From Modestobacter sp. VKM Ac-2977 (GTDB lineage Bacteria > Actinomycetota > Actinomycetes > Mycobacteriales > Geodermatophilaceae), in NCBI RefSeq assembly GCF_026968045.1, contig NZ_JAPVBQ010000005.1:145516-209515 (forward strand): DNA of 64,000 bases. The letters are read 5' to 3'. The notes beneath the pieces are model-generated. The model was not told the origin of the DNA and did not search any database. It worked only from the letters and a program-made list of their open reading frames with translations. Positions within the stretch are counted from its first letter, which is position 1. Every line of letters begins with the position of its first letter. Below are positions 45,030-63,930 of the stretch, one piece after another. A program made the position numbers and the translations under genes.

Positions 45030-45090
45030 GGCCCCGTCCAGAGGCTCGCCCCGAGCTTGCGAGGGGTGAGGAGGACGGGGTCCTTCCTCA
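45030..45090 (-). repeat. Dispersed structured repeat, copy 1
   Basis: A 61-nt element on the minus strand beginning exactly at the TGA stop of the MaoC gene (45088-45090). It is about 85% identical to copy 2 by eye. The conserved core is GGACCCCGTCCTCCTCACCCC at the 5' side and GGGGCGAGCCTC with GACGGGGCC at the 3' side. The 5' and 3' ends (GACCCCGTC and GACGGGGCC) are complementary. Confidence 0.85.
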
Positions 45091-45546
45091 GGCGTAGGTG
45101 CGGGTGACCCACTCGGCGATGCAGACCGGCTTGTCGCCGCCCTCGCGCTCGATGGTGACGGTGACGGTGTTCTGCAGCCCGCCGGCGATCTCCTCCACGT
45201 CCTTGAGCGTCACCCGGGCCCGGACCTTCGACCCGACCGGCACGGGCGCGGGGAAGCGGACCTTGTTCAGGCCGTAGTTCACGCCCATCTTCGCGTCGGT
45301 GACCGTGTAGGTCTGCGAGACCAGCGGCACGAGCAGCGACAGCGTCAGGTAGCCGTGGGCGATCGGGCCGCCGAACGGGCTCTCCGCCTTCGCCCGCTCG
45401 ACGTCGACGTGGATCCACTGGTGGTCGTTGGTGGCGTCGGCGAAGAGGTTCACCGCTTCCTGGGTCACCTCGTACCAGTCGCTGGTGCCGAGCTCCTGGC
45501 CCTTCAGCGAGGGCAGCTCGGCGATGGTGGTGGTGGTGCGGGTCAT
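45088..45546 (-). CDS. MaoC-like (R)-specific enoyl hydratase domain protein
   Basis: A 152-residue single hot-dog-fold hydratase. The hydratase 2 motif is clear: FADATNDHQWIHVD at about residues 32-45, followed by the SPFGGPIAHGYLTLSLL stretch. It would hydrate an enoyl-CoA in a degradative or biosynthetic acyl-CoA pathway. ATG 45546 overlaps the acyl-CoA ligase stop (ATGA). It is the last gene of a four-gene operon (SDR, amidohydrolase, ligase, hydratase), and its stop codon begins repeat copy 1. Confidence 0.9.
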   Translation of the reverse strand: MTRTTTTIAELPSLKGQELGTSDWYEVTQEAVNLFADATNDHQWIHVDVERAKAESPFGGPIAHGYLTLSLLVPLVSQTYTVTDAKMGVNYGLNKVRFPAPVPVGSKVRARVTLKDVEEIAGGLQNTVTVTIEREGGDKPVCIAEWVTRTYA

Positions 45547-47087
45547 GCGTCCTCCTCGGTTGGCACGTACGTCCGTCGCAGGTCCGGCTTGCGGATCTTG
45601 CCCGTCGCGGTCTTGGGCAGCTCGTCCACGTAGCGGACCTCCTTGGGCACCTTGAACCCGGCGAGCCGTTCTCGCAGCGCGGCGCACAGCGCGTCGGCGT
45701 CCCGGGGGGCCCCGGGCGCGGGGACGACGACGGCCAGGCCGACCTCGCCCCAGTGCGCATCGGGCTTGCCGATGACCGCGACCTCCTGCACCTCGGGCAG
45801 CTCCAGCATCACCGACTCGACCTCGGCCGGGTACACGTTCTCCCCGCCGGAGATGATCATGTCCTTGTAGCGGTCGCGGATGTAGAGGTAGCCGTCCTCG
45901 TCGGTGGAGCCGGCGTCCCCGGAGTGGTACCAGCCGTCGACGATCGCGGCGGCGGTGGCCTCGGGGGCGTTCCAGTACCCGGCCATGACGTTCGGCCCGG
46001 ACAGCACGATCTCGCCGACCTCACCCGGCGGGCACTCGGTCCCGTCCGGCCGGACCACCCGGACGTCGGTGAAGAACTGCGACTTCCCGGCCGACCCGAC
46101 CTTGGTCACCGCGTCCGCGCTGTCCAGCGCCGTGCCGGCCGGGGCCGTCTCGGTCATCCCGTAGGCCTGCTGCACGGTCACCCCGCGGTCCAGCCAGGTG
46201 CGCAGCAGCGGCAGGGGGAGCGGTGCCCCGGCGGCGCCGATGGTGCGCAGCGCCGACAGGTCGAGGGTGCCGAAGTCCGGCTGGCGGCTCAGCGCGTCGA
46301 GCATGGTGGGGACGGCGAAGAACGACGTCACCCGTTGCTCGGCGATGACCGCCAGCGTCGCCGGCGGGTCGAACCCCCGCACCAGCACCACGCAGCCGCC
46401 GCGCAGCAGGGTCGGGTTGAGCGTCCCGTTCAGCCCGCCGATGTGGAACAGCGGAGCGAGGCCGAGGGTCCGCTCGTCGGGGGTGAAGTCGAACCCGAGC
46501 ACCTGGCTCATGCACGACCAGGTCATGTTCCCGTGGGTCAGTACCGCGCCCTTGGGTCGGCCGGTGGTGCCGGAGGTGTACATGATCAGGCAGATGTCGT
46601 CGAGGGTGACCGGCTCGTCGCGATGCACCGGCTCCGCCTCCGCCAGCAGCGCCGCCCAGTCCAGCGAGTCGGCGCCGCCGGCCAGTGGGGGCTCGGCGGC
46701 CACCCAGTGCCGGACGGCGGGCAGGGCGTCCCGCAGGGTGTCCGCCGTCGCCCCCTGCTCGCGGCCGTGCACGACCAGCGAGGCGCCGGAGTGCTCGAGC
46801 ACGTACTGCGCCTCGGGCGGGGTGAGCCGGGCGTTGACCGGCACCCAGATCGCGCCGAGCTGGCCGCACGCGTAGAGCGCCTCCAGTCCGGCCGGGTGGT
46901 TCGCGCCCAACCAGGCGACCCGGTCACCGCGCTGCACGCCGAGCCCGGCCAGCGCGGTGGCGGCCCGTCGCACCCGCAGCGCGAACTCGCCGTGCGTCGT
47001 CGTCGTCCCCTCGAACCAGAGGGCCGGCCTGTGCGGGGAGCTCCGCAGCCGGCGCTCGGGCCAGGAGCCCAGTCCGGCGTTCCTCAT
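45543..47087 (-). CDS. Acyl-CoA synthetase (AMP-forming)
   Basis: A 514-residue ANL-superfamily ligase activating a carboxylic acid to its CoA thioester. The P-loop-like motif IMYTSGTTGRPKGA lies at about 168-181. The later motifs are QQAYGMTETAP, the GWYHSGDAG region, RDRYKDMIISGGENVYPAEVE and the catalytic lysine in KTATGKIRK (about 500). ATG 47087 overlaps the amidohydrolase stop. The substrate is unknown; the neighbours suggest a medium-chain or aromatic acid. Confidence 0.92.
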   Translation of the reverse strand: MRNAGLGSWPERRLRSSPHRPALWFEGTTTTHGEFALRVRRAATALAGLGVQRGDRVAWLGANHPAGLEALYACGQLGAIWVPVNARLTPPEAQYVLEHSGASLVVHGREQGATADTLRDALPAVRHWVAAEPPLAGGADSLDWAALLAEAEPVHRDEPVTLDDICLIMYTSGTTGRPKGAVLTHGNMTWSCMSQVLGFDFTPDERTLGLAPLFHIGGLNGTLNPTLLRGGCVVLVRGFDPPATLAVIAEQRVTSFFAVPTMLDALSRQPDFGTLDLSALRTIGAAGAPLPLPLLRTWLDRGVTVQQAYGMTETAPAGTALDSADAVTKVGSAGKSQFFTDVRVVRPDGTECPPGEVGEIVLSGPNVMAGYWNAPEATAAAIVDGWYHSGDAGSTDEDGYLYIRDRYKDMIISGGENVYPAEVESVMLELPEVQEVAVIGKPDAHWGEVGLAVVVPAPGAPRDADALCAALRERLAGFKVPKEVRYVDELPKTATGKIRKPDLRRTYVPTEEDA

Positions 47088-47956
47088 CGCAGCCCCAGGG
47101 CCACGATCGCGTTCTCCTTCATGATCAGCGGCCGGACCTCGTCCTTGATCTCCAGGGCCGCGAAGTCGCGGATCCAGCGCTCGGGGCGCAGCAGCGGGTA
47201 GTCCGAGCCGAAGAGCACCTTCCGCTTCAGCATCGTGTTCGCGGCGCGGACCAGCTGGGGCGGGAAGTACTTCGGTGACCAGCCGGACAGGTCGATGTAG
47301 ACGTTGGCCTTGTGGGTGGCCACCGAGATCGCGGCGTCCTGCCAGGGCACCGAGGGGTGGGCCATGATGATCGTCAGGCCCGGGAAGTCGGCCGCGACGT
47401 CGTCCAGCAGCATCGGGTCGGAGTAGCGCAGCTTGATCCCGCGCCCGCCGGGCAGCCCGGCGCCGATCCCGGTCTGCCCGGTGTGGAACAGCGCCGGGAT
47501 GCCGAGGCTCTGCAGCTCCTCGTACAGCGGGTACACCGCGCGGTCGTTGGGGAGGAAGTCCTGCAGGCTGGGGTGGAACTTGAACCCCCGCACCCCGTGC
47601 TCCTGCACCAGCCGGCGGGCGGCGCGGATGCCGGCCACCCCGCGTGCCGGGTCGATCGACCCGAACGGGATGAGCACGTCGGGGTGCTGCGCGGCGAGGT
47701 CGGCGATCTCCTCGTTGGACAGCGTCATCTGCCCGGTGGCCGCCTCGGCGTCGACGGTGAAGACGACCGCGGCCATCTTCCTGTCCCGGTAGTCGGCGGC
47801 GATGTCGGGGACGGTCGGGTCGTACGGGTCGCCCTTGAAGTACTGGCTGGCGGCGGCGTTGAGCTCGTCGTCCAGGGCCAGGTGCCCGTGTTGGTCGGCG
47901 TGCACGTGGACGTGCACGTCGATCGCGACCAGCGCGTCCAGGTCCAGCCCGGTCAC
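47084..47956 (-). CDS. Amidohydrolase-family protein (TIM-barrel metal hydrolase/decarboxylase)
   Basis: A 290-residue amidohydrolase-2-type protein. The N-terminal metal site reads VAIDVHVHVHADQHG, an expanded version of the usual D-x-H-x-H. Further landmarks are GFKFHPSLQ (about residue 125), FHTGQTG, IIMAHPSVPW and the C-terminal FGSDYPLLRPERW with the catalytic Asp (about 258). Relatives act as decarboxylases or hydrolases on aromatic and cyclic acids. GTG 47956 overlaps the SDR stop (GTGA). It is encoded in a catabolic operon with SDR, ligase and hydratase. Confidence 0.87.
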   Translation of the reverse strand: MTGLDLDALVAIDVHVHVHADQHGHLALDDELNAAASQYFKGDPYDPTVPDIAADYRDRKMAAVVFTVDAEAATGQMTLSNEEIADLAAQHPDVLIPFGSIDPARGVAGIRAARRLVQEHGVRGFKFHPSLQDFLPNDRAVYPLYEELQSLGIPALFHTGQTGIGAGLPGGRGIKLRYSDPMLLDDVAADFPGLTIIMAHPSVPWQDAAISVATHKANVYIDLSGWSPKYFPPQLVRAANTMLKRKVLFGSDYPLLRPERWIRDFAALEIKDEVRPLIMKENAIVALGLR

Positions 47957-48861
47957 TTCGGGGGCTCCGGCAGCTGCTGGCCCACGGTCTGCTGCGCGGC
48001 GGCGAACTGCCGCGGCCAGACCTCGGCGATGGCGTCGGGTGACCAGCCGGTGCCGTCGGCGAACTCCACGACCACCTCGGTCGGGTGGCTCCACAGCGCC
48101 AACCGGTCGCCACCGATGCCCACCGCCTGCCCGGTGATGCCGCTGGCTGCGTCGGAGGCGAGGAAGGCGACCAGCCCGGCGGCGTCGGCGGGGGAGCCGA
48201 AGCCCAGCTCCTGGCGGGCGAAGGCCGGCAGCGGGTCGCCGGCGGCGAGCGCGTCGACGTAGGGCTTGAGGAAGGGCACCGTCTCGGTCATCGCGGTGGC
48301 GGCGACCGGGACGACGGCGTTGACGGTGATCTCGGCCCGGGCCAGCTCCATCGCCCAGGTGCGCACCATCCCGACGATCCCGGCCTTGGCGGCGGCGTAG
48401 TTGGTCTGGCCGAAGTTGCCGACCTGGCCGGTGGGGGAGCCGATGCAGATGACCCGGCCGCCCTCGCCCTGCTCGCGCATCCGGACCGCGGCGGCGCGGG
48501 TGCAGGTGAAGGTGCCGCGCAGGTGGGTGGTGAGCACGGCGTCGAACTGCTCGTCGGTCATCTTCCACAGCGTCGTGTCGCGCAGGATGCCGGCGTTGTT
48601 GACCAGCACGTCGAGCCGGCCGAACTCGCCCACCGCCCGGTCGACCAGCGCCTGGGCGGCCTCGCTGCTGCCGACCGCGACGACCTCGGCGACGGCGGTG
48701 CCCCCGGCGTCGGTGATCGACTGCACGGCGGCCGCGGCGACGTCGGGGTCGACGTCGTTGACGACGACGGCGGCCCCGCAGCGGGCGAGTTCGGTGGCGT
48801 AGGCGAGGCCGAGGCCCCGTCCGGATCCGGTGACGACGGCGACCTTGCCGGTCAGGTCCAC
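47953..48861 (-). CDS. Short-chain dehydrogenase/reductase
   Basis: A 302-residue SDR, similar to the dehydrogenase part of multifunctional beta-oxidation enzymes. The cofactor motif is VTGSGRGLGLAYA and the NNAG motif is present (about residue 90). The active site has serine in CIGSPTG and YAAAK (about 155), and a further tail of about 50 residues follows the core. It would oxidise a 3-hydroxyacyl-CoA or similar alcohol. GTG 48861 has AAGGAG 6 nt upstream. It is the first gene of the leftward operon and diverges from the MarR gene by 77 bp. Confidence 0.9.
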   Translation of the reverse strand: MDLTGKVAVVTGSGRGLGLAYATELARCGAAVVVNDVDPDVAAAAVQSITDAGGTAVAEVVAVGSSEAAQALVDRAVGEFGRLDVLVNNAGILRDTTLWKMTDEQFDAVLTTHLRGTFTCTRAAAVRMREQGEGGRVICIGSPTGQVGNFGQTNYAAAKAGIVGMVRTWAMELARAEITVNAVVPVAATAMTETVPFLKPYVDALAAGDPLPAFARQELGFGSPADAAGLVAFLASDAASGITGQAVGIGGDRLALWSHPTEVVVEFADGTGWSPDAIAEVWPRQFAAAQQTVGQQLPEPPK

Positions 48862-48938
48862 GAGAGCTCCTTCGATCGGGACGGGCCAGCGCGGACGCTA
48901 GGGCGCGATGTTGGATGATGTCAACGAATGGAGGTCCC

Positions 48939-49400
48939 ATGGACATCGAGCTCGATCGACCCGGACTGACCGACGACGTCGGGTTCCTGCTCTCCCGGGC
49001 CAGTGGCCGGCTGGTGCGGGCCAGCAACGCCGTGCTCGCCGGCCACGGGCTGCGGGTCCGCCCCTGGTCGGTGCTGGTGCTGGCGTGCGACGCGGCCGAG
49101 GGGGTCTCCCAGCGGGAGCTGGCCGACGTGCTCGGGCTCGACCCCAGCCAGATCGTCCTGCTCGTCGACGAGCTGACCGCGGCCGGGCTGGTGGAGCGGC
49201 GGCCGTCTCCGGCCGACCGCCGGAACAAGCTGGTCCTCGGCACCGCAGCCGGGCAGGCCGTCCGGACGGCGGCGGCCCGGGACGTCGAGCTCGCCCTCGC
49301 CGGCGAGCTCACCGACTTCTCCGCCGGGGAGCGTCAACTGCTGCAGGAGCTGCTGACCCGCTTGGTGTTCGGCGGCGGATCGGCGGCCGGCCGCGGCTGA
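48939..49400 (+). CDS. MarR-family transcriptional regulator
   Basis: A 153-residue winged-helix regulator. The recognition region reads SQRELADVLGLDPSQIVLLVDELTAAGLVERR (about residues 53-84), followed by the DRRNKLV wing typical of MarR. ATG 48939 has GGAGG 5 nt upstream. It lies between the divergent SDR operon and the lipoprotein gene, with related GTCAACG/TTGAC words on both sides. It probably represses both and responds to an aromatic acid or CoA ester, as many MarR proteins do; this is inference. Confidence 0.9.
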   Translation: MDIELDRPGLTDDVGFLLSRASGRLVRASNAVLAGHGLRVRPWSVLVLACDAAEGVSQRELADVLGLDPSQIVLLVDELTAAGLVERRPSPADRRNKLVLGTAAGQAVRTAAARDVELALAGELTDFSAGERQLLQELLTRLVFGGGSAAGRG

Positions 49401-49455
49401 CCGCGGCCGCGACGGAGGGGCTGGCCGTCGACGGGTGTGACGTGCATCATGACCA

Positions 49456-49472
49456 ACGTCAATCGTTGACGT
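49456..49472. promoter_or_regulatory. MarR-type operator palindrome
   Basis: ACGTCAA-TCG-TTGACGT is a perfect 7-bp inverted repeat with a 3-nt spacer, 28 bp before the lipoprotein start. A possible -10 (TATCTC, 49480-49485) lies just downstream, so the palindrome would cover the -35 region. A related half-site, GTCAACG, occurs at 48920-48926 in the MarR/SDR intergenic region. Confidence 0.6.
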
Positions 49473-49500
49473 CGTCATGTATCTCATTGGGGAGAGTGCG

Positions 49501-50478
49501 ATGGTCCGGAAGTCGGTCCCTGTCCTGGTCTCGGTCCTGCTGGCGCTCTCCGCCTGCGGAGGGGAGTCCGAAGAGACGCCGGATGCCGCGTCGGGCTCGT
49601 CCGGGGACCTGCGGGAGGTCTCGGTCGGGATGCTGCCGATCATGCCGACCGCTGCCCTGTACGCGGGCATCGAGCAGGGGTTCTTCGAAGACCGCGGACT
49701 CCAGGTGGTCGTGGAGACCGGTCAGGGTGGGGCGGCGTTGTTGCCGGCCGTCCTCTCCGGTGACCTCGAGTTCGCCACCAGCAACCCGGTCTCCCTGCTG
49801 CAGGCACGGGGGCGCGGGCTGGACGTGGAGGTGGTCGCCCACTGGACCTCCGCGCTGTCGTCGGGGGACGCCGACGTCAACGCCGTCGTCGCCGCGCCGG
49901 ACTCCGGGATCGACTCGGCCGCGGACCTGGAGGGCAAGCAGGTGGCCGTGAACACGCTCAACGGCATGGGCGGACTGACCATCCGCGAGGCCGTCCGTCA
50001 GGACGGGGGCGACCCGGACGCCGTGTCCTTCCTCGAGCTCGGCTTCCCGGACATGCCCGCCGCACTGGCGGCCGGCAACGTCGACGCGGTCTGGGTGCCC
50101 GAGCCCTTCCTGAGCAGCCTGCAGGCCGAGGGGAACACCGTGGTCACCCACCCGAGCCTGGAGTCGGTCGCGGGGCACCCCACCCAGCTGTTCTTCACCT
50201 CCGGGCAGCTCGCCGAGTCCGACCCGGAGCTGGTCGCGGACATGACCGCGGCGCTGGAGGAGACCCTCGCCTACGCCGAGGAGAACCCCGACGCGGTCAA
50301 GGCCCAGATCCCCCAGGTGCTGCCGCAGTTGCCGGCGGAGGTGGCGCAGAGCGTGCGGCTGGAGGAGTTCGGCACCGACCTGCGCCGTGCGCAGCTCGAG
50401 GAGCTGGGCCGGCTGATGGAGGAGGACGGCCTGATCGAGGAGCCGGCGGACCTGGACGGGCTCCTCCCCGAGGAGTGA
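49501..50478 (+). CDS. Orphan ABC solute-binding lipoprotein (NMT1/SsuA type)
   Basis: A 325-residue binding lipoprotein. The signal peptide ends in lipobox LSAC (about residues 15-18). The domain is of the NMT1/TauA/SsuA kind (GMLPIMPTAALYAGIEQGFFEDRGL, then DVDAVWVPEPFLSS). The family binds nitrogen- or sulfur-containing organics, pyrimidine precursors or aromatic acids. No permease or ATPase gene lies nearby, so it must use partners elsewhere or act as a sensor. ATG 49501 has GGGGAG 6 nt upstream. A perfect operator-like palindrome lies in front, and the Rieske oxygenase gene follows. Confidence 0.87.
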   Translation: MVRKSVPVLVSVLLALSACGGESEETPDAASGSSGDLREVSVGMLPIMPTAALYAGIEQGFFEDRGLQVVVETGQGGAALLPAVLSGDLEFATSNPVSLLQARGRGLDVEVVAHWTSALSSGDADVNAVVAAPDSGIDSAADLEGKQVAVNTLNGMGGLTIREAVRQDGGDPDAVSFLELGFPDMPAALAAGNVDAVWVPEPFLSSLQAEGNTVVTHPSLESVAGHPTQLFFTSGQLAESDPELVADMTAALEETLAYAEENPDAVKAQIPQVLPQLPAEVAQSVRLEEFGTDLRRAQLEELGRLMEEDGLIEEPADLDGLLPEE

Positions 50479-50500
50479 GGCGGCCCCGGAGCTGCGGAGC

Positions 50501-50525
50501 GGGGCTTCCGTCACGCGGAAGCCCC
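50501..50525 (+). terminator. Hairpin terminator after orphan lipoprotein gene
   Basis: GGGGCTTCCG-TCACG-CGGAAGCCCC, a perfect 10-bp stem 22 nt after the stop codon. It separates the lipoprotein from the oxygenase operon. Confidence 0.7.
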
Positions 50526-50533
50526 ATGGTCGA

Positions 50534-50554
50534 GGTGACGTGATGGGCGTCACC
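50534..50554. promoter_or_regulatory. Inverted repeat upstream of Rieske oxygenase gene
   Basis: GGTGACG-TGATGGG-CGTCACC is a perfect 7-bp inverted repeat 39 bp before the oxygenase ATG. It is a candidate operator for the IclR-type regulator at the end of the same operon. Confidence 0.45.
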
Positions 50555-50593
50555 GTGGAGACGTCGAAGAGGACACCAGCGGGAGGAACACCC

Positions 50594-51703
50594 ATGACGT
50601 CGATCGTCCGCAACCAGTGGTACGTGGCCGCCTACGGCCGCGAGGTCGGCCGCGAGCTCTTCAGCCGCACGATCTGCGGGGAGTCGATCCTCTTCTGGCG
50701 GACCGAGGCCGGCGAGGTCACCGCGATGAGCGACCGCTGCGTGCACCGCCGGTTCCCGCTCTCCCAGGCGCCCAGCCACCTGGTCGGCGACACCGTCGTC
50801 TGCGGTTACCACGGCTTCACCTACGGCGCCGACGGCGGCTGCGTGGCGGTGCCCGGCCAGACCCGGGTGCCACGCACCGCCCGGCTCAAGACCTACCCGG
50901 TCTTCGAGCAGGACAGCTTCGTCTGGGTGTTCATCGGCGATGCCGAGAAGGCCGAGGCCACGGCGATCCCGCGCGCACCGTGGCTCGCCCAGGACGGCTG
51001 GACGACGGTCAGCGGCATGGAGCCGCTCGCCGCGCGGGCCAGCCTGCTCGTGGACAACCTGATGGACCTGTCCCACGAGACGTACCTGCACGGCGGGTAC
51101 ATCGGGACGCCGGAGGTGGCGAACACCCCGATCACCACCGAGGTCGACGACGCCGCGGGGGTCGTCTACGTCAGCCGGCACATGGCCGACGCCGAGTGCC
51201 CGCCGTTCTACGCGAAGAGCACCGGCATCACCGGCCGGATCACCCGCTGGCAGGACATCGAGTTCACCCCGCCCTGCCTGTACAAGCTGCACAGCCGGAT
51301 CGCCCCGGTCGGGGTGCTGCCCGACGACGACGGCACCGACCCGGACGCCTTCCACGTCGAGGTCGTCTACGCGATCACCCCGGAGACGGAGTCCACCACG
51401 CACGACTTCTGGGCCGTCGCCCGCGACTTCGCCCTCGACGACGAGGGGGTCTCGGACTTCCTGCGGGAGAGCAACCGCACCGTCGTCCTGCAGGACGTCG
51501 TCGCCCTCGACGTGCTGGAGAAGGTGCTCACCGGCGAGCCGGACGGCTACCAGGAGCTCTCCATCAACATCGACACCGGTGGCCTGGCCGCCCGGCGGAT
51601 CATCGCCCGGCTGGCGGCCGAGGGCACCGGCGAGGCCGCCCCGGCCGCCCCGCCGGCCCGCACCCCCGCCGGTGTGCGCAGCCCCGCGGCGGCCACCCGG
51701 TGA
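50594..51703 (+). CDS. Rieske non-heme iron oxygenase, VanA-like
   Basis: A 369-residue oxygenase component of an aromatic demethylase/hydroxylase system. The Rieske [2Fe-2S] ligands are CVHRRF (about residue 47) and CGYHGF (about 68). The mononuclear iron site begins DNLMDLSHETYLHGG (about 150-164), with two His and a nearby Asp. The closest well-known group is the vanillate O-demethylase oxygenase (VanA) and related ring-hydroxylating enzymes; the substrate is not proven. GGGAGGA precedes ATG 50594. It works with the reductase at 52109-53086. Its stop overlaps a small gene of unknown function (GTGA). Confidence 0.92.
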   Translation: MTSIVRNQWYVAAYGREVGRELFSRTICGESILFWRTEAGEVTAMSDRCVHRRFPLSQAPSHLVGDTVVCGYHGFTYGADGGCVAVPGQTRVPRTARLKTYPVFEQDSFVWVFIGDAEKAEATAIPRAPWLAQDGWTTVSGMEPLAARASLLVDNLMDLSHETYLHGGYIGTPEVANTPITTEVDDAAGVVYVSRHMADAECPPFYAKSTGITGRITRWQDIEFTPPCLYKLHSRIAPVGVLPDDDGTDPDAFHVEVVYAITPETESTTHDFWAVARDFALDDEGVSDFLRESNRTVVLQDVVALDVLEKVLTGEPDGYQELSINIDTGGLAARRIIARLAAEGTGEAAPAAPPARTPAGVRSPAAATR

Positions 51704-52014
51704 CCGTCCCCGAGCCCCGGGACGGGTCCGAGCCCGGGCTGACGCTGCCCGCGCCGCGCCAGGTGCTCGAGGGCGAGCGGGTGCTGCGGGTCAACTGGCT
51801 GCCCGGCTCCGACCGGCTGCGCGGCCTGTGCCACTGCGGCGCCGAGGCCGAGGCGTCGGACCCGGTGGAGATGTGGGAGTGGCTGCTGGCCCACCCCGAC
51901 CACCCGGCCGGTGGACCGGTCGAGCCCCCGGCGGCGGGCCCGCTGCCCACCCCACCCGCCCACCTGGTGACCGACCCGCTTGTGATCATCCGCCGGGTAC
52001 CGGTCCCCGCCTGA
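51700..52014 (+). CDS. Small unknown protein with Cys-x-Cys motif
   Basis: A 104-residue protein starting at GTG 51700, overlapping the oxygenase stop (GTGA). The N- and C-termini are Pro-rich. The centre (about residues 42-70) holds GLCHCGAEAEASDPVEMWEWLLAHPDH, a Cys-x-Cys pair followed by an acidic, Trp-rich helix. I do not recognise the family. Position and coupling suggest an accessory or electron-transfer subunit of the oxygenase, or a small zinc protein. Its TGA stop begins repeat copy 2. Confidence 0.7.
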   Translation: MTVPEPRDGSEPGLTLPAPRQVLEGERVLRVNWLPGSDRLRGLCHCGAEAEASDPVEMWEWLLAHPDHPAGGPVEPPAAGPLPTPPAHLVTDPLVIIRRVPVPA

Positions 52015-52072
52015 AGGAGGACCCCGTCCTCCTCACCCCGCGCATGCACGGGGCGAGCCTCGGGACGGGGCC
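52012..52072 (+). repeat. Dispersed structured repeat, copy 2
   Basis: A 61-nt element beginning at the TGA of the preceding gene. The first 22 nt form a perfect hairpin, AGGAGGAC-CCC-GTCCTCCT (52015-52033). A second small stem CCCCG/CGGGG follows, and the end GACGGGGCC can pair with the GACCCCGTC near the start. It lies between the Cys-x-Cys protein gene and the reductase gene. Confidence 0.85.
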
Positions 52073-52108
52073 GGGGGCCCTGGCGGTGCGATCGTGATGA
52101 GGAGAGCA

Positions 52109-53086: not shown

Positions 53087-53146
53087 GCCCGCCCGGCCCC
53101 CCCGGGGTCGGCGGCGCGGAGGACGGCGGGCAGCAAACTGCTGGCC

Positions 53147-56275: not shown

Positions 56276-56280
56276 GCGAC

Positions 56281-56317: not shown

Positions 56318-56321
56318 ACGT

Positions 56322-56618: not shown

Positions 56619-56665
56619 GCCACTCATCCTGCCCGTCGTCGTCCGACGCTGATCAGGACGGCAGC

Positions 56666-57013: not shown

Positions 57014-57095
57014 GTCAGCACTCCCTCGTCCTCGGTCGGTCGTGCCCGACCGGTGCCCCGCGCGGCGGCCGGCCAACCCACGGCAGACTGTCGGC

Positions 57096-57569
57096 GTGCG
57101 CTCTCCGACCGATGGCTGGACGACCTGCGCCCTGGGCCACCGGCACTGGGGCCTGGCCGGAGCGGCCGGTCTGCTGCTGCACCGGCCCGGTGCAGACGGG
57201 GTCGAGGTGTTGCTCCAGCTGCGGGTGGAGTGGTCGCACCACGGTGGCACCTGGGGCACCCCGGGCGGCGCGCTGCACCCGCAGGAGTCCGCGGCCGACG
57301 GCGCGCTGCGCGAGGCGGGGGAGGAGCTCGGGCTGCGCTCCGCGGACGTCGTCCTGGGCGCGGAGTGGGTCGACGACCACGGAGGCTGGAGCTACACCAC
57401 CGTGCTGGCCACGCCCGCCGGCGCACTGGAGCCCGACGACCTGGCGCTGAACGAGGAGAGCGCGGGCGTCGGCTGGTTCGCCCTCGATGCGCTGCCGGTG
57501 CTACACCCCGGGCTCGCCGCGACCCTGCCCGTGCTCGCCCGCGCGGTGACCGGCTCCGACGTCACATGA
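57096..57569 (+). CDS. NUDIX hydrolase
   Basis: A 157-residue NUDIX protein with an intact Nudix box, GALHPQESAADGALREAGEELGL (about residues 61-83), matching Gx5Ex7REUxEExGU exactly. It hydrolyses a nucleoside diphosphate linked to another moiety; the substrate cannot be inferred. The start is GTG 57096 with a poor Shine-Dalgarno. Its stop overlaps a 30-residue membrane peptide gene (ATGA). Confidence 0.9.
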   Translation: MRSPTDGWTTCALGHRHWGLAGAAGLLLHRPGADGVEVLLQLRVEWSHHGGTWGTPGGALHPQESAADGALREAGEELGLRSADVVLGAEWVDDHGGWSYTTVLATPAGALEPDDLALNEESAGVGWFALDALPVLHPGLAATLPVLARAVTGSDVT

Positions 57570-57658
57570 GCGGACGCCAGACCGCGAGGGTCCACTGGGC
57601 CGTGGTGGCACTCGTCGTGGGGGTGTGCCTGGCGACGTCCCTGGTGCGCACCGTGTGA
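57566..57658 (+). CDS. Putative 30-residue membrane microprotein
   Basis: A short frame in an ATGA overlap with the NUDIX stop. It encodes 30 residues: a basic, polar start (MSGRQTARVHW), a hydrophobic helix (AVVALVVGVCLATSLV) and RTV. The coupling position and clear single-helix character argue for a real gene; its length makes that uncertain. No family is recognised. Confidence 0.45.
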   Translation: MSGRQTARVHWAVVALVVGVCLATSLVRTV

Positions 57659-57695
57659 TCGAGACGGCGGGCGGGCGCGCCACCACGGTGACGGA

Positions 57696-57717
57696 CCGGG
57701 CGCCCTCGGGCGCCCGG
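57696..57717. terminator. Bidirectional terminator hairpin
   Basis: CCGGGCGCCC-TC-GGGCGCCCGG, a perfect 10-bp stem between the converging microprotein and endonuclease/exonuclease/phosphatase genes. Confidence 0.7.
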
Positions 57718-57720
57718 AAC

Positions 57721-58515
57721 TCAGCCCGGTGACACCGACACGGTGACCAGTCGGTGGTCGCCGAGCGAGAGCTGCCGCACCTCGGGGCGCTGCGGGTCCA
57801 GGCCGGCCGGGCCGAGCAGGTGGTCGAACTGCACCCGCGGCGCCGGGGCCGGGTAGGTCGGCGCGCTGACCAACCGCGCCGCGCCGAACACCCGCGCGGG
57901 CACCGGTCCGACCAGGTTGAGGTCGCCGGCCAGCACCACCGGGCCGGGCAACTCGGCGCACCACCGGCGCAGCCGGGTCAGCTGGCGGAGCGCGGTGTGC
58001 GGCGCGAAGGACAGGTGGGTGCTGACCACGGTGCAGTGCTCCAGCTCGGCGGCGATCGCCAGCCGCGGCTCGTCCGGGAACCACCACCGGCGGGTCTGCC
58101 CGGTGCGCGGGTCGGGCGCCCGCAGCGGGAGTCGGGCCCGCCCGGCGCCCAGCGGGAGCACCGACCAGCGGTGCACCGGCAGCCGACTGAACAGCGCGAT
58201 CCCGTAGTGCGGGCCGGTCAGCGTCTCCCAGGACCCGCGGAGCACCGGCGGGTCGACCGGGGTCCAGCTGCGGAACGGGTCGGGGGTGCCGGCGACGGCT
58301 GCGGCGAACCGCCACTCGGGCGTACCGAGCGCGGCGGCCACCTCGGCCGCCTGGTCGGCACCGTGCGACCGGGGCTGGCCCACGTCGACCTCCTGGACGG
58401 CGAGGACGTCGACGTCCACCTCCGCCAGGGCGGCCCGCAGTGTCGCGGCGTCGAGCGAGCGACCGCCACCGTCCCGGCCGGAGGCGAGGTTCAACGTCCC
58501 GATCCGGAGTTCCAC
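57721..58515 (-). CDS. Endonuclease/exonuclease/phosphatase family protein
   Basis: A 264-residue metal-dependent phosphoesterase of the DNase I-like superfamily. The motifs are in order: RIGTLNLASGR (about residue 5), VLAVQEVD (Glu, about 40), STHLSFAP, LAGDLNLVG (about 190) and the C-terminal GDHRLVTV with the catalytic His. No signal peptide is seen. Substrates in the family range from DNA to phosphoinositides. GTG 58515 is the likely start. It diverges from menB by 124 bp. Confidence 0.85.
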   Translation of the reverse strand: MELRIGTLNLASGRDGGGRSLDAATLRAALAEVDVDVLAVQEVDVGQPRSHGADQAAEVAAALGTPEWRFAAAVAGTPDPFRSWTPVDPPVLRGSWETLTGPHYGIALFSRLPVHRWSVLPLGAGRARLPLRAPDPRTGQTRRWWFPDEPRLAIAAELEHCTVVSTHLSFAPHTALRQLTRLRRWCAELPGPVVLAGDLNLVGPVPARVFGAARLVSAPTYPAPAPRVQFDHLLGPAGLDPQRPEVRQLSLGDHRLVTVSVSPG

Positions 58516-58626
58516 GCCACCATCAGACCAGTCCGGGGCCACTCGTGCTCTGCTCGCCGGTGGTGAGCAGCGCACGAGGCGCCGAGGAGGCACCTGCTCG
58601 GCGGAGCGGGTGCATCCTGCTGCGAC

Positions 58627-58632
58627 TAGGTT
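58627..58632 (+). promoter_or_regulatory. Probable -10 box of menB (leaderless)
   Basis: TAGGTT fits the actinobacterial TAnnnT -10 pattern and lies 7 nt before the menB GTG. Transcription would start at or next to the start codon, and no Shine-Dalgarno is present. Confidence 0.45.
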
Positions 58633-58639
58633 CGGGACC

Positions 58640-59530
58640 GTGAGTGCCCGCGCCGACGTCTCCGAGATCTTCGACCCCACCGCCTGGCGGCCGGTCGAGG
58701 GCTTCGAGCAGCTGACCGACGTCACCTACCACCGCGCCGTCGACGCCGGTGTCGTCCGGATCGCGCTCGACCGGCCCGAGGTGCGCAATGCCTTCCGGCC
58801 GCAGACGGTCGACCAGTTGCTCGCCGTCTTCGAGCACGCGCGGCTGGCGACCGACGTCGGCTGCGTGCTGCTCACCGGCAACGGCCCCAGCGCCAAGGAC
58901 GGCGGCTGGGCGTTCTGCTCCGGCGGCGACCAGCGGGTACGCGGCAGGTACGGCTACGAGGCCGGCGACGGCGCGAACGGACGGCTGCACATCCTGGAGG
59001 TGCAGCGGCTGATCCGGTTCATGCCGAAGGTCGTCGTCTGCGTCGTCCCGGGCTGGGCGGCCGGTGGCGGGCACAGCCTGCACGTGGTCGCCGACCTGAC
59101 CCTGGCCAGCGCCGAGCACGCCCGCTTCAAGCAGACCGACGCCGACGTCGGCAGCTTCGACGGCGGGTTCGGCTCGGCGTACCTGGCCCGCCAGGTCGGG
59201 CAGAAGTTCGCCCGGGAGGTCTTCTTCCTCGGGGAGGAGTACTCCGCCGAGGAGGCGCACCGGATGGGCATGGTCAACCGGGTCGTGCCGCACGCCGAGC
59301 TGGAGGCCACCGCGCTGGACTGGGGACGCCGGATCGTGGCGAAGAGCCCGACCGCCCAGCGGATGCTCAAGTACTCGTTCAACCTGATCGACGACGGGCT
59401 GGTCGGTCAGCAGCTGTTCGCCGGGGAGACCACCCGGCTGGCCTACATGGCCGAGGAAGCGGTGGAGGGCCGGGACTCGTTCCTGGAGAAGCGCCCGGCC
59501 GACTTCTCCCGCTTCCCATGGCACGCCTGA
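58640..59530 (+). CDS. menB: 1,4-dihydroxy-2-naphthoyl-CoA synthase
   Basis: A 296-residue crotonase-fold enzyme of menaquinone biosynthesis that closes the ring of o-succinylbenzoyl-CoA. Diagnostic parts are WAFCSGGDQRVRG (about residues 91-103), the oxyanion-hole GWAAGGGHSLHVV (about 138), the DVGSFDGGFGS motif (about 170-180) and the C-terminal FSRFPWHA. Its length matches the family's long form. GTG 58640 is likely leaderless. Other men genes are not in this window. A small coupled gene follows after 15 bp. Confidence 0.95.
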   Translation: MSARADVSEIFDPTAWRPVEGFEQLTDVTYHRAVDAGVVRIALDRPEVRNAFRPQTVDQLLAVFEHARLATDVGCVLLTGNGPSAKDGGWAFCSGGDQRVRGRYGYEAGDGANGRLHILEVQRLIRFMPKVVVCVVPGWAAGGGHSLHVVADLTLASAEHARFKQTDADVGSFDGGFGSAYLARQVGQKFAREVFFLGEEYSAEEAHRMGMVNRVVPHAELEATALDWGRRIVAKSPTAQRMLKYSFNLIDDGLVGQQLFAGETTRLAYMAEEAVEGRDSFLEKRPADFSRFPWHA

Positions 59531-59545
59531 AGGAGGAGGACACGG

Positions 59546-59878
59546 ATGATCGTCGAGGTGATCGGGGGCACCGACGAGGTGCCCGAGGTGCGGGTGGCCG
59601 ACGTCGACGACCTGGCCCGGCTGCACCTGGCCGTGGGGGCGCTGACCGACGAGGACGTCGACCGGGCGTTGCGCGAGGCGGGCCTGGGCCGGCTGAGCGA
59701 GGGTGACACCGGCCTGCTGGACGTGGCGGCCCTGCGCGCCGCCGCCGAACCGCAGGCGACCGCCGACGACTGGGCGCAGCGTTTCGACGGGATGGTGGCG
59801 CAGGCCGTCGAGAAGGGCTGGGCGGCGGACGACGGAGCCAGCCTGCAGGTGCACGTGGAGCCCGCCGCGTCGGCCTGA
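59546..59878 (+). CDS. Small conserved-looking acidic protein downstream of menB
   Basis: A 110-residue acidic protein with no signal peptide or membrane helix. It looks helical, with LHLAVGALTDEDVDRALREAGLG and a QRFDGMVAQAVEKGW segment. A strong GGAGGAGG Shine-Dalgarno precedes ATG 59546, and the gene follows menB by 15 bp, so it is probably co-expressed. The family was not recognised; I cannot assign a function. Confidence 0.75.
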   Translation: MIVEVIGGTDEVPEVRVADVDDLARLHLAVGALTDEDVDRALREAGLGRLSEGDTGLLDVAALRAAAEPQATADDWAQRFDGMVAQAVEKGWAADDGASLQVHVEPAASA

Positions 59879-59970
59879 GGGCGCTCCGCGACCCGCCCGG
59901 CGAACTGTGATCTCGATGCGGAGTCGCTCGGTTGTTGTGGTCACTCCACCTTCTTGGGCACGATTGCACG

Positions 59971-60597
59971 GTGACCACGACCGATCTGCCTCCGCGACCC
60001 GCCGCCGCCCGTCCCCCGGGGCGCCCGCTGTCGTCGGAGCTGTCCGAGCAACTGGTGGCCGTGGCGGTGGAGATCCTCGCCGACGAGGGGTGGGGGAGGC
60101 TCAACAGCGACCGCGTGGCCGCGCGGGCCCGGGCCGGCAAGGCCGGCATCTACCGGCGTTGGCCCACGATGGCCGCACTGGCGCGGCACGCCCTGAACAC
60201 CGCGCCGCTGGTCGAGCTGCCCGCCGACTCCGGGTCGCTGCGCAGCGACCTCTGCGAGCTGCTGGCCCGTTGGACCCGGCCGCTGGACCGCGCCGAGCGA
60301 GCCGCCGCGAGCCTGGTCGGGGCAGCTCGGCACGACGACGAGCTGCGCGCCGGCCTCGAGGAGGCGCTGGTGCGCCCGCTGGCCGGCGCAGTGCGTGAGC
60401 TGGCGGCGCGGGAGGCCGCCCGCGGGCGTGAGCTGCCGCACCAGCGGGTCGCGCTGCTGGGATCGGCGGTGCAGGCGCTGTGGTGGCAGCGCTACACGGC
60501 CTTCGGTCCGGCGCCGATGAGCACCGCGCAGGTCGAGCAGCTGGTCACCGACGTGCTGCTGCCGATCGTCGAGTCGGAGCAGCAGCCGCCCGGCTGA
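59971..60597 (+). CDS. TetR-family regulator
   Basis: A 208-residue TetR regulator. The helix-turn-helix lies at about residues 20-65 (AVEILADEGWGRLNSDRVAARARAGKAGIYRRWPTMAAL), and the C-terminal helical domain follows. GTG 59971 lacks a Shine-Dalgarno and may be leaderless. Its target is unknown; it is convergent with the second TetR gene and follows the menB pair. Its TGA stop is the first base triplet of repeat copy 3. Confidence 0.88.
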   Translation: MTTTDLPPRPAAARPPGRPLSSELSEQLVAVAVEILADEGWGRLNSDRVAARARAGKAGIYRRWPTMAALARHALNTAPLVELPADSGSLRSDLCELLARWTRPLDRAERAAASLVGAARHDDELRAGLEEALVRPLAGAVRELAAREAARGRELPHQRVALLGSAVQALWWQRYTAFGPAPMSTAQVEQLVTDVLLPIVESEQQPPG

Positions 60598-60653
60598 GGG
60601 AGGACCCCGTCCTCCTCGTCCCTCAGGCTCGGGACGAGCCTCTGGACGGGGCC
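60595..60653 (+). repeat. Dispersed structured repeat, copy 3
   Basis: A 59-nt element beginning at the TGA of the TetR gene. The 5' hairpin GGAGGAC-CCC-GTCCTCC is intact. The middle differs from copies 1 and 2 and is 2 nt shorter, but it keeps a stem by compensation: CGTCCC pairs with GGGACG. The 3' end GACGGGGCC is conserved. Confidence 0.85.
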
Positions 60654-60667
60654 GGTGGAGTCCTTCT

Positions 60668-61342
60668 TCAGTCGATCCGCACGTCCAGCTGGCGGGCGAG
60701 CCGGCGCACCCCGTCCTCGAGCACGGCGAGGGTGGCGGCGGTGGTCGCGTGCTCGGGTCCACGCGCCGCGGTGCCGTGCCCCGTGCCGAGCACCTGCCGG
60801 CGGTTCGCGAGCACCAGCACGCGCCCGGCCACCAGGAACAGGTCGGCCGCCAGTCGGCTGAGCAGGTCGACTGAGGCGCCGTCCGGCTGCTCCGTCGCCG
60901 CGAGCGCGGTCGCCAGCGCCGCCGCCACCCGCCCGCCGGCCTCCTCCACCAGGGTCCGTTCCCGTTGCTGCAGGCTGGTCGTCCGCGCCAGGGCCTCCAG
61001 GTAGCTGCGGTGCTCCGGCTGCGCCTCCTGCTCCAGCAGCTGGTGGAGGTCGCTCTCCAGGTAGCTGCGCAGCGCGGCCAGCGGTCCGGTGCCGTGCGGC
61101 CGGGCCGTGACGGCGGCGGCGACCCCCTCGACCCACGGCGTCCGGCCGTCGAAGAACAGTGCTTCCTTGCTGTCGAAGTGGTTGAAGACGGTCTGCACCG
61201 CGACGTCGGCGGTCGCGGCGATGTCGGCGATGGTCACCGCGTCGAAGCTGCGCTCGGCGAACAGGCGCTGAGCCGCCGCGCGTATCTCCGTCCGGGTCTG
61301 CGCCTTGCGGCGTTCCCGGCGTCCCCCTGTCGCCGCGTCCAC
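60668..61342 (-). CDS. TetR-family regulator
   Basis: A 224-residue TetR regulator. The helix-turn-helix is clear (AAQRLFAERSFDAVTIADIAATADVAVQTVFNHFDSKEAL, about residues 20-60). I prefer GTG 61342: on the minus strand a TACATT -10-like box (61355-61350) ends 7 nt before it, predicting a leaderless mRNA. An upstream TTG at 61363 would add seven residues. It sits 42 bp downstream of the DUF5946 gene on the same strand. Ligand and targets are unknown. Confidence 0.87.
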   Translation of the reverse strand: MDAATGGRRERRKAQTRTEIRAAAQRLFAERSFDAVTIADIAATADVAVQTVFNHFDSKEALFFDGRTPWVEGVAAAVTARPHGTGPLAALRSYLESDLHQLLEQEAQPEHRSYLEALARTTSLQQRERTLVEEAGGRVAAALATALAATEQPDGASVDLLSRLAADLFLVAGRVLVLANRRQVLGTGHGTAARGPEHATTAATLAVLEDGVRRLARQLDVRID

Positions 61343-61384
61343 GATCGACAATGTAGAGCGCAACTCACCGCTCGTGATGCCGTG

Positions 61385-61906
61385 TCAGCCGGTCAGGGCC
61401 GTGTCCGCGGCGGCGCGCAGCCGGTCGTGCGCCGGTGTCCAGTCCGTCCACACCGCGTCGGCCCAGGCGCGCACCAGGGCCGGCAGGTCCACGACGTCCA
61501 GGTCGGCGGCCAGGTCCGCGACGGTCGTCGTCCAGCGTTCCGGTGCGGTCAGGTCACGGGGGGCGGCGTCGTCCACCCGGCTGCCGAGCGCAGCCGAGCG
61601 CGCGTGGTCGACGCTCCGCTCCAGCTCCAGGCAGAGCCGGACCGGTGCGGCGGCCGGTGCACCGGGCAGCAGGTGCTGGGCCTCGTAGGCGTCGGCGGCC
61701 ACCCGGAGCAGCGACGCGGCCTGCACGTCCTGCCCGGCCTCCTCGCGGAGGCCGCGCACCGTCACGGCGAACAGCCCGGCGCAGCTGGCCGAGGCGCCGG
61801 CGTGCGTGCCGGCCAGACCGGGGACGACGGCGAGCACCGCGCCACAGCCGGGACAGGCCGAGGTCTCCGGCGCCTGCTGGGGGCTCGGGGTGTCGGCGCC
61901 GGTCAC
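61385..61906 (-). CDS. DUF5946 family protein
   Basis: A 173-residue protein with the pattern of DUF5946: an N-terminal CPGCGAVL pair (about residues 18-25), then GTHAGASASCAGLFAVTVRGL with a third Cys, and an all-helical C-terminal part with a Trp-rich end. Function is not known; the Cys-x-x-Cys plus Cys/His could bind metal. GTG 61906 is the likely start, without a clear Shine-Dalgarno. It diverges from the alcohol dehydrogenase gene by 132 bp. Confidence 0.75.
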   Translation of the reverse strand: MTGADTPSPQQAPETSACPGCGAVLAVVPGLAGTHAGASASCAGLFAVTVRGLREEAGQDVQAASLLRVAADAYEAQHLLPGAPAAAPVRLCLELERSVDHARSAALGSRVDDAAPRDLTAPERWTTTVADLAADLDVVDLPALVRAWADAVWTDWTPAHDRLRAAADTALTG

Positions 61907-62038
61907 GACGGTCGATCGTGCCGTACGGGGACGGGCAGCGCCGACCGGGCGGGGTGGCACTGGGTGCCACCCGACGGCGGGGGGTGGCGCCGGACCCCCT
62001 AGCGTGGGCCAGGTCACGCTCGAGACAGGAGACGGTGG

Positions 62039-63145
62039 ATGAAGACGCACGGTGCGGTGCTGCGGGGTCCCGGCGACTGGGAGGTCGCGGAGCTCGAGCT
62101 GGTCGACCCCGGCCCGGGGCAGGTGCTGGTCGAGATGGCCTACGCGGGGCTGTGCCACTCCGACGAGCACCTGCGGTTCGAGAGCCAGCGCTACCCCATC
62201 GTCGGCGGGCACGAGGGCGCCGGCGTGGTCCAGGCCGTCGGGGCCGGCGTCACCGGCGTGCAGCCCGGCGACCACGTGGTCACCTCCTTCCTGCCGGCGT
62301 GCGGCCACTGCCGCTGGTGCGCCACCGGCCGGTCCAACCTCTGCGACCTCGGCGCGACGATCGGCACCGGGCAGCTGCCGGACGGGACCTGGCCGTTCCG
62401 GCTGGACGGCGAGGAGCTCGGCGGCTTCTGCATGGTCGGCGCCTTCGCCCAGCACTCGGTGCTGTCGGAGTTCTCCTGCGTCAAGATCGAGCCGCACCTG
62501 CCCCTGGACGTCGCCGCGCTGATGGCCTGCAGCGTCCCGACCGGCTGGGGCTCCGCGGTGAACGCCGGGCCGGTGCGCCAGGGCGACGTCGTGGTCGTCG
62601 TCGGCACCGGTGGGGTCGGCTGCAACGCGGTGCAGGGCGCGGCGATGGCCGGTGCGGGCGCCGTCGTCGCCGTCGACCCGGTGGCCTTCCGCCGGGAGTT
62701 CGCCCGGACGCTGGGCGCCACCCACGCGGTCGCCAGCACCGAGGAGGCGGCGGGCCTGGCGAAGCAGCTGTCCCGCGGCACCGGGGCCGACGTCGTCATC
62801 CTGGCCACCGGCACGACCAGCCCGGAGATCACCGGCGGCGCCTACCGCTGCCTGGGCAAGGGCGGCACGCTGGTGCTGACCGGCCTGGCCGACCACACGA
62901 TGGCGACGACCGTCGCGCTGCCCGGCAACATCACCACCGTCTACGAGCAGCGGGTGCAGGGCGCGCTGTACGGGATGTGCAACGCCTACCGGGACATCCC
63001 GCGGCTGCTGCGGCTCTACGAGGACGGCGCGCTCGAGGTCGACTCGCTGATCACCGAGCGCTACGCCCTCGACGAGGTCAACCAGGGCTACCAGGACCAG
63101 CGCGACGGCACCGTCATCCGCGGCGTCCTCCAGCACCAGCACTGA
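62039..63145 (+). CDS. Zinc-dependent alcohol dehydrogenase, NDMA-dependent type
   Basis: A 368-residue medium-chain dehydrogenase. Catalytic zinc ligands lie in GLCHSDEH (about residue 37) and GGHEGAGVV (about 60). The structural zinc lobe is CGHCRWCATGRSNLC (about 88-102). The nucleotide fold has VVVGTGGVGCNAVQ (about 188). The overall sequence best fits actinobacterial NDMA-dependent alcohol dehydrogenases, which hold nicotinamide tightly and pass electrons to a redox partner. No mycofactocin genes are in the window. The GGAGACGGTGG leader precedes ATG 62039. A perfect 40-bp palindrome follows the stop. Confidence 0.92.
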   Translation: MKTHGAVLRGPGDWEVAELELVDPGPGQVLVEMAYAGLCHSDEHLRFESQRYPIVGGHEGAGVVQAVGAGVTGVQPGDHVVTSFLPACGHCRWCATGRSNLCDLGATIGTGQLPDGTWPFRLDGEELGGFCMVGAFAQHSVLSEFSCVKIEPHLPLDVAALMACSVPTGWGSAVNAGPVRQGDVVVVVGTGGVGCNAVQGAAMAGAGAVVAVDPVAFRREFARTLGATHAVASTEEAAGLAKQLSRGTGADVVILATGTTSPEITGGAYRCLGKGGTLVLTGLADHTMATTVALPGNITTVYEQRVQGALYGMCNAYRDIPRLLRLYEDGALEVDSLITERYALDEVNQGYQDQRDGTVIRGVLQHQH

Positions 63146-63149
63146 CCCA

Positions 63150-63189
63150 CCCCTGAGCCACCAAAATGGCCATTTTGGTGGCTCAGGGG
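63150..63189. repeat. Perfect 40-bp palindrome
   Basis: Two exact 20-bp arms with no loop: CCCCTGAGCCACCAAAATGG and its reverse complement. It begins 5 nt after the alcohol dehydrogenase stop. The AT-rich centre (AAAATGGCCATTTT) stands out in this GC-rich genome. It could be a terminator, a regulator site or a repeat family member. Confidence 0.85.
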
Positions 63190-63223
63190 GTGATCGTCCA
63201 GGTGGCTGGGCAGGTCAGCGTGC

Positions 63224-63889
63224 ATGGCCGAACCCACCATCGCCGTCATGGACGTCGACGGCACCCTCGTCGACTCGAACTACCACCACGCCCTGGCCTG
63301 GTACCGGGCGCTCCGCTCACTGGGGGAGACCTACCCCGTCTGGCGCATCCACCGCCTGATCGGCATGGGCGGTGACCAACTCGTCGCCGCCCTCGGTGGC
63401 GAGGAGGTCGAGCGGCGGATCGGTGACGAGGCCCGGGACAGGTGGGTGACGGAGGTCGACACGATGATCGACGAGATCGCCCCGCTCCCCGGCGCCCGCG
63501 ACCTGCTGGTGGCCATCAAGGAGCGCGGGCACCGGCTGGTGCTGGCCAGCTCGGGCAAGCCGAAGCACGTGGAGGTCTTCCTCGACCTCCTCGACGCCCG
63601 CGACCTCGCCGACGCCGTCACCGACAGCGGCGACGCCGAGTCCTCCAAGCCCGAGCCGGACCTGCTGCAGGTGGCGCGGCAGATGCTCGGGGCCGCCGAC
63701 GAGACGCGCAGCGTGATGGTCGGTGACTCGGTCTGGGACGTGGTCGCGGCGAAGAACGCCGGGATGCCGGCGATCGTCGTCCGCTCCGGTGGCTTCGGGG
63801 ACGACGAGCTGCACGACGCCGGTGCCGTGGGGATCTACGACACCCCCGGCGACCTCGCGGCCGCACTGGACGACACCCCGCTCGCCTGA
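63224..63889 (+). CDS. HAD-family phosphatase (phosphoglycolate phosphatase-like)
   Basis: A 221-residue HAD hydrolase. Motif I is VMDVDGTLVDSN (about residues 8-19), motif II LASSGKPK (about 107), motif III lysine in SSKPEPDLL (about 141) and motif IV MVGDSVWDV (about 165). A four-helix cap lies between motifs I and II, as in phosphoglycolate phosphatases and beta-phosphoglucomutases. The substrate is unknown. The start is ATG 63224 with a weak Shine-Dalgarno. Its TGA stop begins repeat copy 4. Confidence 0.9.
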   Translation: MAEPTIAVMDVDGTLVDSNYHHALAWYRALRSLGETYPVWRIHRLIGMGGDQLVAALGGEEVERRIGDEARDRWVTEVDTMIDEIAPLPGARDLLVAIKERGHRLVLASSGKPKHVEVFLDLLDARDLADAVTDSGDAESSKPEPDLLQVARQMLGAADETRSVMVGDSVWDVVAAKNAGMPAIVVRSGGFGDDELHDAGAVGIYDTPGDLAAALDDTPLA

Positions 63890-63930
63890 GAGAGGAGCCC
63901 CGTCCTCCGGCCCCGTCTCGGGGCGGAGTC
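63887..63930 (+). repeat. Dispersed structured repeat, copy 4 (divergent)
   Basis: It begins at the TGA of the HAD gene with TGAGAGAGGAGCCCCGTCCTCC, matching the 5' hairpin of copies 1-3 with one inserted G. CCCCG-TCT-CGGGG follows as a second stem. The 3' third is not conserved, so this is a degenerate or truncated member. Confidence 0.6.

Follow-up and report, generated by a model that had tools for sequence, protein, structure and literature searches.

A large family of palindromic repeats lying mostly behind stop codons in Geodermatophilaceae, probably spread as folded DNA hairpins

A stretch of 64,000 nucleotides from Modestobacter sp. VKM Ac-2977 (contig NZ_JAPVBQ010000005.1, positions 145,516 to 209,515; the whole stretch is referred to as the window) carries copies of a repeat that is a hairpin of about 55 nt, present in dozens to more than 100 copies in most of the Geodermatophilaceae genomes examined. 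The copies lie mostly in sense orientation behind stop codons, and this palindrome family has probably spread between the ends of genes, some enzyme copying it in the form of a folded DNA hairpin. The repeat would thus be a non-autonomous mobile element, in which it is the folded DNA and not the sense RNA that would be recognised and kept paired. Its preferred landing places would be the tips of hairpins, i.e. older copies and native terminators, and the bases that immediately follow a stop codon. An earlier description of the repeat, made from the letters of the window without database searches, is called the sequence-only reading below.

Results

A repeat family of many copies

Two covariance models were built, R1 from 16 copies and R2 from 34 gapless copies. 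Neither contains columns upstream of the repeat core, so that a placement at stop codons is not built into the search. All match counts are lower bounds, 150 candidates having been scored per genome for the genome of Modestobacter sp. VKM Ac-2977 (the own genome) and in a search of 17 genomes of the genus and 12 of other families, and 50 per genome in a family-wide search; the E-values of these purpose-built models are rough. In the own genome R1 gave 109 matches at E≤1. All 17 genomes of the genus contain R1 matches, with 14 to 145 in each, and none was found in the 12 genomes from other families. Family-wide, matches are present in 101 of 112 Geodermatophilaceae genomes and in 9 of 12 genera, the carriers named being Geodermatophilus, Blastococcus, Modestobacter, Trujillonella and Goekera, together with metagenome bins (80 of at least 116 stretches). 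A genome search finding few further copies, which would have spoken against the family postulated by the sequence-only reading, was thus not the outcome.

A search of the own genome with a 14-mer pointed in the same direction. It yielded 16 exact and 32 one-mismatch places, the latter being only partly family members (reversed control pattern: 12). A TGA lies within 7 nt upstream of all 16 exact places, 14 of which share one register. In the window the 14-mer has three exact matches, and ten at up to two mismatches compared with 1.9 expected. An Rfam search of the window at gathering thresholds returned one tRNA only and no described RNA family matching the repeat.

Sense copies directly behind stop codons

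Placement was assessed against genes called by a codon-usage script made for this analysis and blind to the repeat. A census of 835 kb, consisting of the window and of stretches fetched independently of the repeat, was searched with R2 and gave 40 rows or 39 places, one row being the reverse reading of another. At 37 of these 39 places the repeat starts between −3 and +5 nt from the end of the stop codon of a sense gene, in 25 cases at exactly 4 nt. The own genome gives the same picture: after removal of three matches without flanking sequence and three that were duplicate, fragmentary or weak, 89 of the remaining 103 copies start no more than 5 nt from a sense stop, 59 of them at exactly 4 nt, as compared with 23 of 1979 intergenic positions drawn at random together with their strand and 12 of 2000 random positions. 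For three of the 103 copies the sole adjoining stop is on the antisense side, and seven have stops on both sides. Among named and binned genomes (80 contig stretches; 133 copies, one of them too close to a contig end), 90 of 132 copies pass the 0–5 nt stop test. The non-random position relative to both stop and strand that the sequence-only reading had proposed is therefore well borne out.

The stop codons at the 89 own-genome copies are TGA (73), TAG (12) and TAA (4). In the census, the 37 stops next to the repeat comprise 30 TGA, 4 TAG and 3 TAA, and all 765 genes together have 673, 78 and 14, respectively. Since the three codons are used in about genomic proportions, the rule is "behind the stop" and not "at TGA". 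A TGA-based DNA target motif is ruled out by the same figures, and the original statement that the repeat always starts at TGA does not hold across the family.

The consensus of the upstream flank over 105 matches is CTGANGAA, which reads CTGAN-GAA. The junction NGAA is tied to the repeat, as it follows TGA in just 8 of 643 element-free TGA genes. In 18 own-genome copies the core lies only 1 or 2 nt behind the stop; judging from the flanks, the repeat's own GA or G could complete the stop codon in this group (T|GA, TA|G). A subset of copies carries the 3' tail GTTCCAGCNNGTCACC (downstream, for example, in L112, L120 and L132), whose TTC could pair with GAA and would then lengthen the stem. A GTTCC-like start follows 23 of the 132 copies from named and binned genomes.

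Turnover between sister species and mutual interruption

Twenty of 21 sites were comparable between the own genome (G000) and that of a sister species (G029). A recognisable copy is kept at nine of them in G029 and none is recognisable at the other 11, which indicates that the repeat comes and goes. The position of the stop is unchanged at all 11 sites, and the codon itself differs in three. Because the stop keeps its position where the element is missing, it is taken to be the gene's own. On this view the TGA is not the element's first triplet, as had been supposed, and an element that imports new stops at new places is ruled out. At C10:585389 the sister species has a terminator-like hairpin of which G000 retains the right arm only, the element replacing the left arm and loop. 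Behind the stop of one gene of the window, encoding a MaoC-like protein, 18 loci of relatives were compared; the family recurs at several of them with different stems, one has a deletion form and others have unrelated hairpins.

Copies also interrupt one another, from which we conclude that the repeat spreads. They occur within the loops of other copies (L225, L268, L270, L283, L303) and within inverted copies (L074, L088). Automatic detection by runs of perfect complementarity gave 11 rows, several of them due to chance; L283, L303, L074 and L088 were accepted by reading. As judged by eye, part of the outer loop has gone around the inserted copy. The nested copies are the best evidence for insertion of the repeat. 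Own-genome matches are mostly single with few close pairs, and adjacent copies were seen in other genomes (L269, L291, L330, L337).

A long, covarying hairpin

Both RNAalifold and direct folding predict a single long hairpin with an outer stem of 11 bp, an inner stem of 7–8 bp and the loop YTCGCNNGCTC. Covariation was counted on a structure drawn up by hand from the same sequences. In the own set, both partners have changed in 12 of the 18 pairs, with 67 double-change cells against 17 in shuffles. In named and binned genomes (130 distinct copies) there are 273 against 75, and 95.4% of cells pair, the named-genome alignment being fitted to the model and structure. The stem covariation that the sequence-only reading had anticipated is accordingly strong, although it resides in a different fold from the one emphasised there. 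The small 5' hairpin containing AGGAGG and CCTCCT does exist as an alternative in the subfamily found in the window, but it is weaker (about −25 to −26 kcal/mol versus −30 to −34 kcal/mol for the long hairpin) and absent from most copies listed. As it is not retained outside that subfamily, it was rejected as the conserved fold in favour of the long hairpin, which covaries.

If selection acted on the sense RNA, one would expect G·U to be accepted in the stems and A·C to be avoided. In the well-paired rows, with one inner pair left out, there are 36 G·T as against 55 A·C cells, A·C counts being dependent on the alignment. At two inner positions A·C occurs in 27 and in 14 of the 34 copies, respectively, and the opposite strand has G·U there. 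The antisense RNA is predicted to be more stable in all 34 copies, with a mean of −38.3 kcal/mol compared with −30.9 kcal/mol for the sense RNA. Furthermore, a U-tract is missing behind the core (T makes up 1–30% at positions 1–8, with no run), while a GC-rich hairpin as expected of an intrinsic terminator is present. Without a U-tract and without an overall preference for sense G·U, an ordinary terminator fits poorly. The suggested function as a terminator or mRNA 3' stabiliser is hence disfavoured, the more so as further terminator-like hairpins, judged by eye, lie downstream of several copies. With the reservation that the A·C counts depend on the alignment, these results speak for a structure recognised as DNA rather than for a plain terminator.

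Candidate movers

None of the 112 genomes of the family was found to contain the Y1/RAYT transposase domain (PF01797, IS200/RAYT), whereas it was detected in 5 of 14 controls. RAYT was therefore dismissed as the mover. IS110 is present in 74 of the 112 genomes, but it is absent from the element-rich G001, G010, G011, G013, G014 and G015 and present in G035 and G063, which lack matches. Reverse transcriptase occurs in 49 of the 112, including most genomes of the own genus, and is absent from element-rich genomes such as G002, G004 and G015. The distribution of neither follows the element, and both were discarded as movers. A reverse transcriptase located in the own genome at G000:C1:566340-566990 has similar genes, with a frame of about 484 aa, in many other members of the genus; it is not linked to the repeat.

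The copies in the window

The copies and the genes upstream of them are as follows.

45030..45083, minus strand: hairpin core of copy 1 (GGACC..GGCC), subfamily A; R1 84.1 bits, R2 61.4 bits
45084..45090, minus strand: stop TGA of copy 1 (45088-45090) and 4-nt junction GGAA
45088..45687, minus strand: gene upstream of copy 1, MaoC-like dehydratase (PF01575, E 3.5e-27)
52019..52072, plus strand: hairpin core of copy 2, subfamily A; R1 76.5 bits
52012..52018, plus strand: stop TGA of copy 2 (52012-52014) and junction AGGA
50617..52014, plus strand: gene upstream of copy 2, 465 aa, no Pfam family at E 0.001
60602..60653, plus strand: hairpin core of copy 3; R1 69 bits
60595..60601, plus strand: stop TGA of copy 3 (60595-60597) and junction GGGA
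59932..60597, plus strand: gene upstream of copy 3, TetR-type regulator (PF16859, PF00440)
63887..63930, plus strand: proposed copy 4, behind a HAD hydrolase; R1 15.4 bits, fold z −0.62

Copies 1–3 share one layout, in which a stop TGA and four junction bases precede a core of 52–54 nt (GGACC...GGCC). The inner stem of copy 3 departs in sequence from that of copy 1 and its predicted pairing is preserved, in agreement with the compensatory change noted there in the sequence-only reading. That reading had counted four copies in the window. Three of them are indeed located where it placed them and belong to the large family. The fourth was missed in the census by both models (R2 to E 1, R1 to E 0.01) and reached 15.4 bits when R1 was run with filters off over 301 bases, compared with 25–84 bits for the own-genome R1 matches listed. 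It is no convincing member and at best a decayed relic.

In subfamily A (45065-45090 on the minus strand, 52012-52037 and 60595-60620) a predicted local hairpin pairs around the stop codon. In copy 1 this would join UGAGGA with UCCUCA, and it is predicted to be weaker than the long hairpin.

Other palindromes at gene ends

Two further repeated palindromes, named F2 and F3, were followed in relatives, where 25 of 30 fetched loci were examined. F3 is unrelated to the repeat (GTGGAGTGCCAGCGC..GCGCTGGCACTCCAC; L412, L416, L413, L417, L434 and others, in G008 and G006). Of its 15 copies, 12 have one or more stops no further than 5 nt away, and some stand between two convergent stops. As F3 also abuts stops, the site behind a stop may be a docking niche common to more than one family. 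F2, the third repeated hairpin family (AGGCATAGGAACCTATTCACCC..; L193, L192, L411 and L427, in G001, G014 and G008), has arms that vary yet stay complementary, and none of its ten copies lies within 5 nt of a stop. At L207 (G034), three tandem copies of another palindrome (GGCCATGTTGGCGAACATGGCC) stand behind the same MaoC stop codon.

Discussion

The best reading of the repeat is that of a mobile palindrome that docks at stop codons, resembles REP (repetitive extragenic palindromic) and MIRU elements and has no detectable RAYT. The REP- or MITE-like element targeting gene ends which was among the initial suggestions agrees with the many copies, the stop-linked placement and the strong covariation.

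MIRU elements are reportedly in sense orientation and inserted at DTGA stop/start overlaps, as Supply is said to have described in 1997. To judge from published descriptions, the repeat resembles MIRU as a small actinobacterial repeat between genes; it differs in being a single covarying palindrome at which all three stop codons are used, and its window copies do not end at the next start codon. MIRUs have been described as small intergenic repeats of Mycobacterium tuberculosis, for which an influence on translation inside operons has been proposed (PMC2734929), and as tandem repeats of 46–101 bp at 41 loci (PMC3914561).

REP and REPIN sequences are described as short dispersed extragenic palindromes occurring in hundreds per genome, with compensatory changes in REPINs (PMC3116915). 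The repeat is likewise a high-copy, extragenic, imperfect palindrome. It differs from GTAG REPs and REPINs by its flank consensus CTGAN-GAA in place of an unpaired GTAG, by the lack of a Y1/RAYT domain in the 112 genomes and by its sense docking at stop codons. CGTC-tagged REPs form palindromic families apparently without a dedicated transposase, and a passage on them names five phyla, Actinomycetota not among them (PMC3733652). The repeat is also palindromic without a detectable dedicated transposase; unlike these sequences it has no CGTC tag in its flank consensus, and the 3' tail contains CGTC only occasionally. For E. coli, ribosome stalling is reported for REPs located no more than 15 nt from a stop codon (PMC12306157), a position held by 446 of 4,072 predicted REPs and, in an earlier study, by 260 of 496. 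Hairpins near stops are common to both cases and a translational effect is reported for E. coli; the repeat differs in that 89 of its 103 own-genome copies begin 5 nt or less from a stop. The literature listings searched contained nothing on such repeats in Geodermatophilaceae.

Based on these data, the following course of events is put forward. The DNA of the repeat would fold into a hairpin, be recognised as DNA and be copied by an enzyme, and the new copy would land at a hairpin tip or right behind the stop of another gene, in sense. A stop-proximal copy may then slow terminating ribosomes and lower the output of the upstream gene; by analogy with the E. coli REPs that lie up to 15 nt from a stop, such stalling would be the most likely effect. 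Because stalling has been reported for those REPs, a role touching ribosome recycling, as proposed in the sequence-only reading, retains some plausibility.

Several observations weigh against spread as folded DNA. Transposition was not observed and a target-site duplication was not found, nor was a mover identified among the RAYT, IS110 and reverse transcriptase candidates. Among the 11 G029 sites where no copy is recognisable, three or more (C1:43957, C1:129431, C11:498658) contain, as judged by eye, deleted or decayed copies, so loss contributes alongside gain. Several differences between G000 and G029 resemble replacement of the whole segment from stop to terminator, and C1:867505 could represent a loss between GGACCCC repeats. 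The wobble signal is uneven, with 24 G·T versus 21 A·C in the own genome and 12 versus 34 in named genomes. The stop test is failed by 14 of 103 copies in the own genome and by 42 of 132 in named genomes. Among the failures are nested or compound copies, the 42 including copies inside or next to other copies, and others may have been missed by the crude coding test. Finally, constant spacing to any stop codon is not predicted by a simple DNA-motif target and could reflect selection for an RNA function.

Such selection is central to two alternatives. The copies may be intrinsic terminators or 3' mRNA stabilisers, RNA hairpins under selection that are occasionally duplicated by recombination. 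This would suit GC-rich hairpins lying mostly in sense directly behind genes, and unrelated hairpins at one same stop in other species look as if a hairpin were wanted there. We nevertheless regard it as unlikely in view of the missing T run, the lack of an overall preference for sense G·U over A·C, the better antisense fold, the additional terminator-like hairpins downstream, the turnover in the sister species and the interruption of copies by one another. Alternatively, the repeat may be a translational brake of the REP type that stalls the terminating ribosome, which would fix both the 4-nt spacing and the sense orientation and make mobility secondary. The sharp placement at sense stops of any kind and the stalling reported for stop-proximal E. 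coli REPs (PMC12306157) accord with such a brake. As the E. coli effect extends to 15 nt, however, a sharp peak at 4 nt would be unnecessary, and with no wobble signature of sense-RNA selection and turnover between sister species we give a primary brake function little credence.

Spread might also proceed without an enzyme, by breaks at the tips of DNA hairpins followed by short templated copying or end joining. The partial loss of outer loops around nested copies, the replaced left arm and loop at C10:585389, the lack of RAYT and the failure of IS110 and reverse transcriptase to track the element all fit, but the distance to the stop, the sense bias and the constant ends GAAGGACC..GGCC would be left unexplained, and we hold this explanation to be improbable. 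Compared with these alternatives, enzymatic copying of a folded DNA hairpin is favoured. A more far-reaching proposal, to which we assign only a small chance, is a new class of mobile DNA whose machinery would recognise the position of a stop via the terminating ribosome or its mRNA instead of a DNA motif, so that unrelated palindrome families of one genus, the repeat and F3, dock there, outside genes.

Among the small palindromic repeats of bacteria, many have been linked to RAYT transposases or still lack an explanation. The Geodermatophilaceae contribute a large family from the Actinomycetota that lacks a detectable RAYT and combines sharp placement at stops with compensatory evolution and mutual interruption. 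Sister species offer natural paired sites, with the element, nothing or another hairpin behind the same gene, for studying how stop-proximal hairpins affect translation. The question posed by the repeat is what finds stop codons in DNA.

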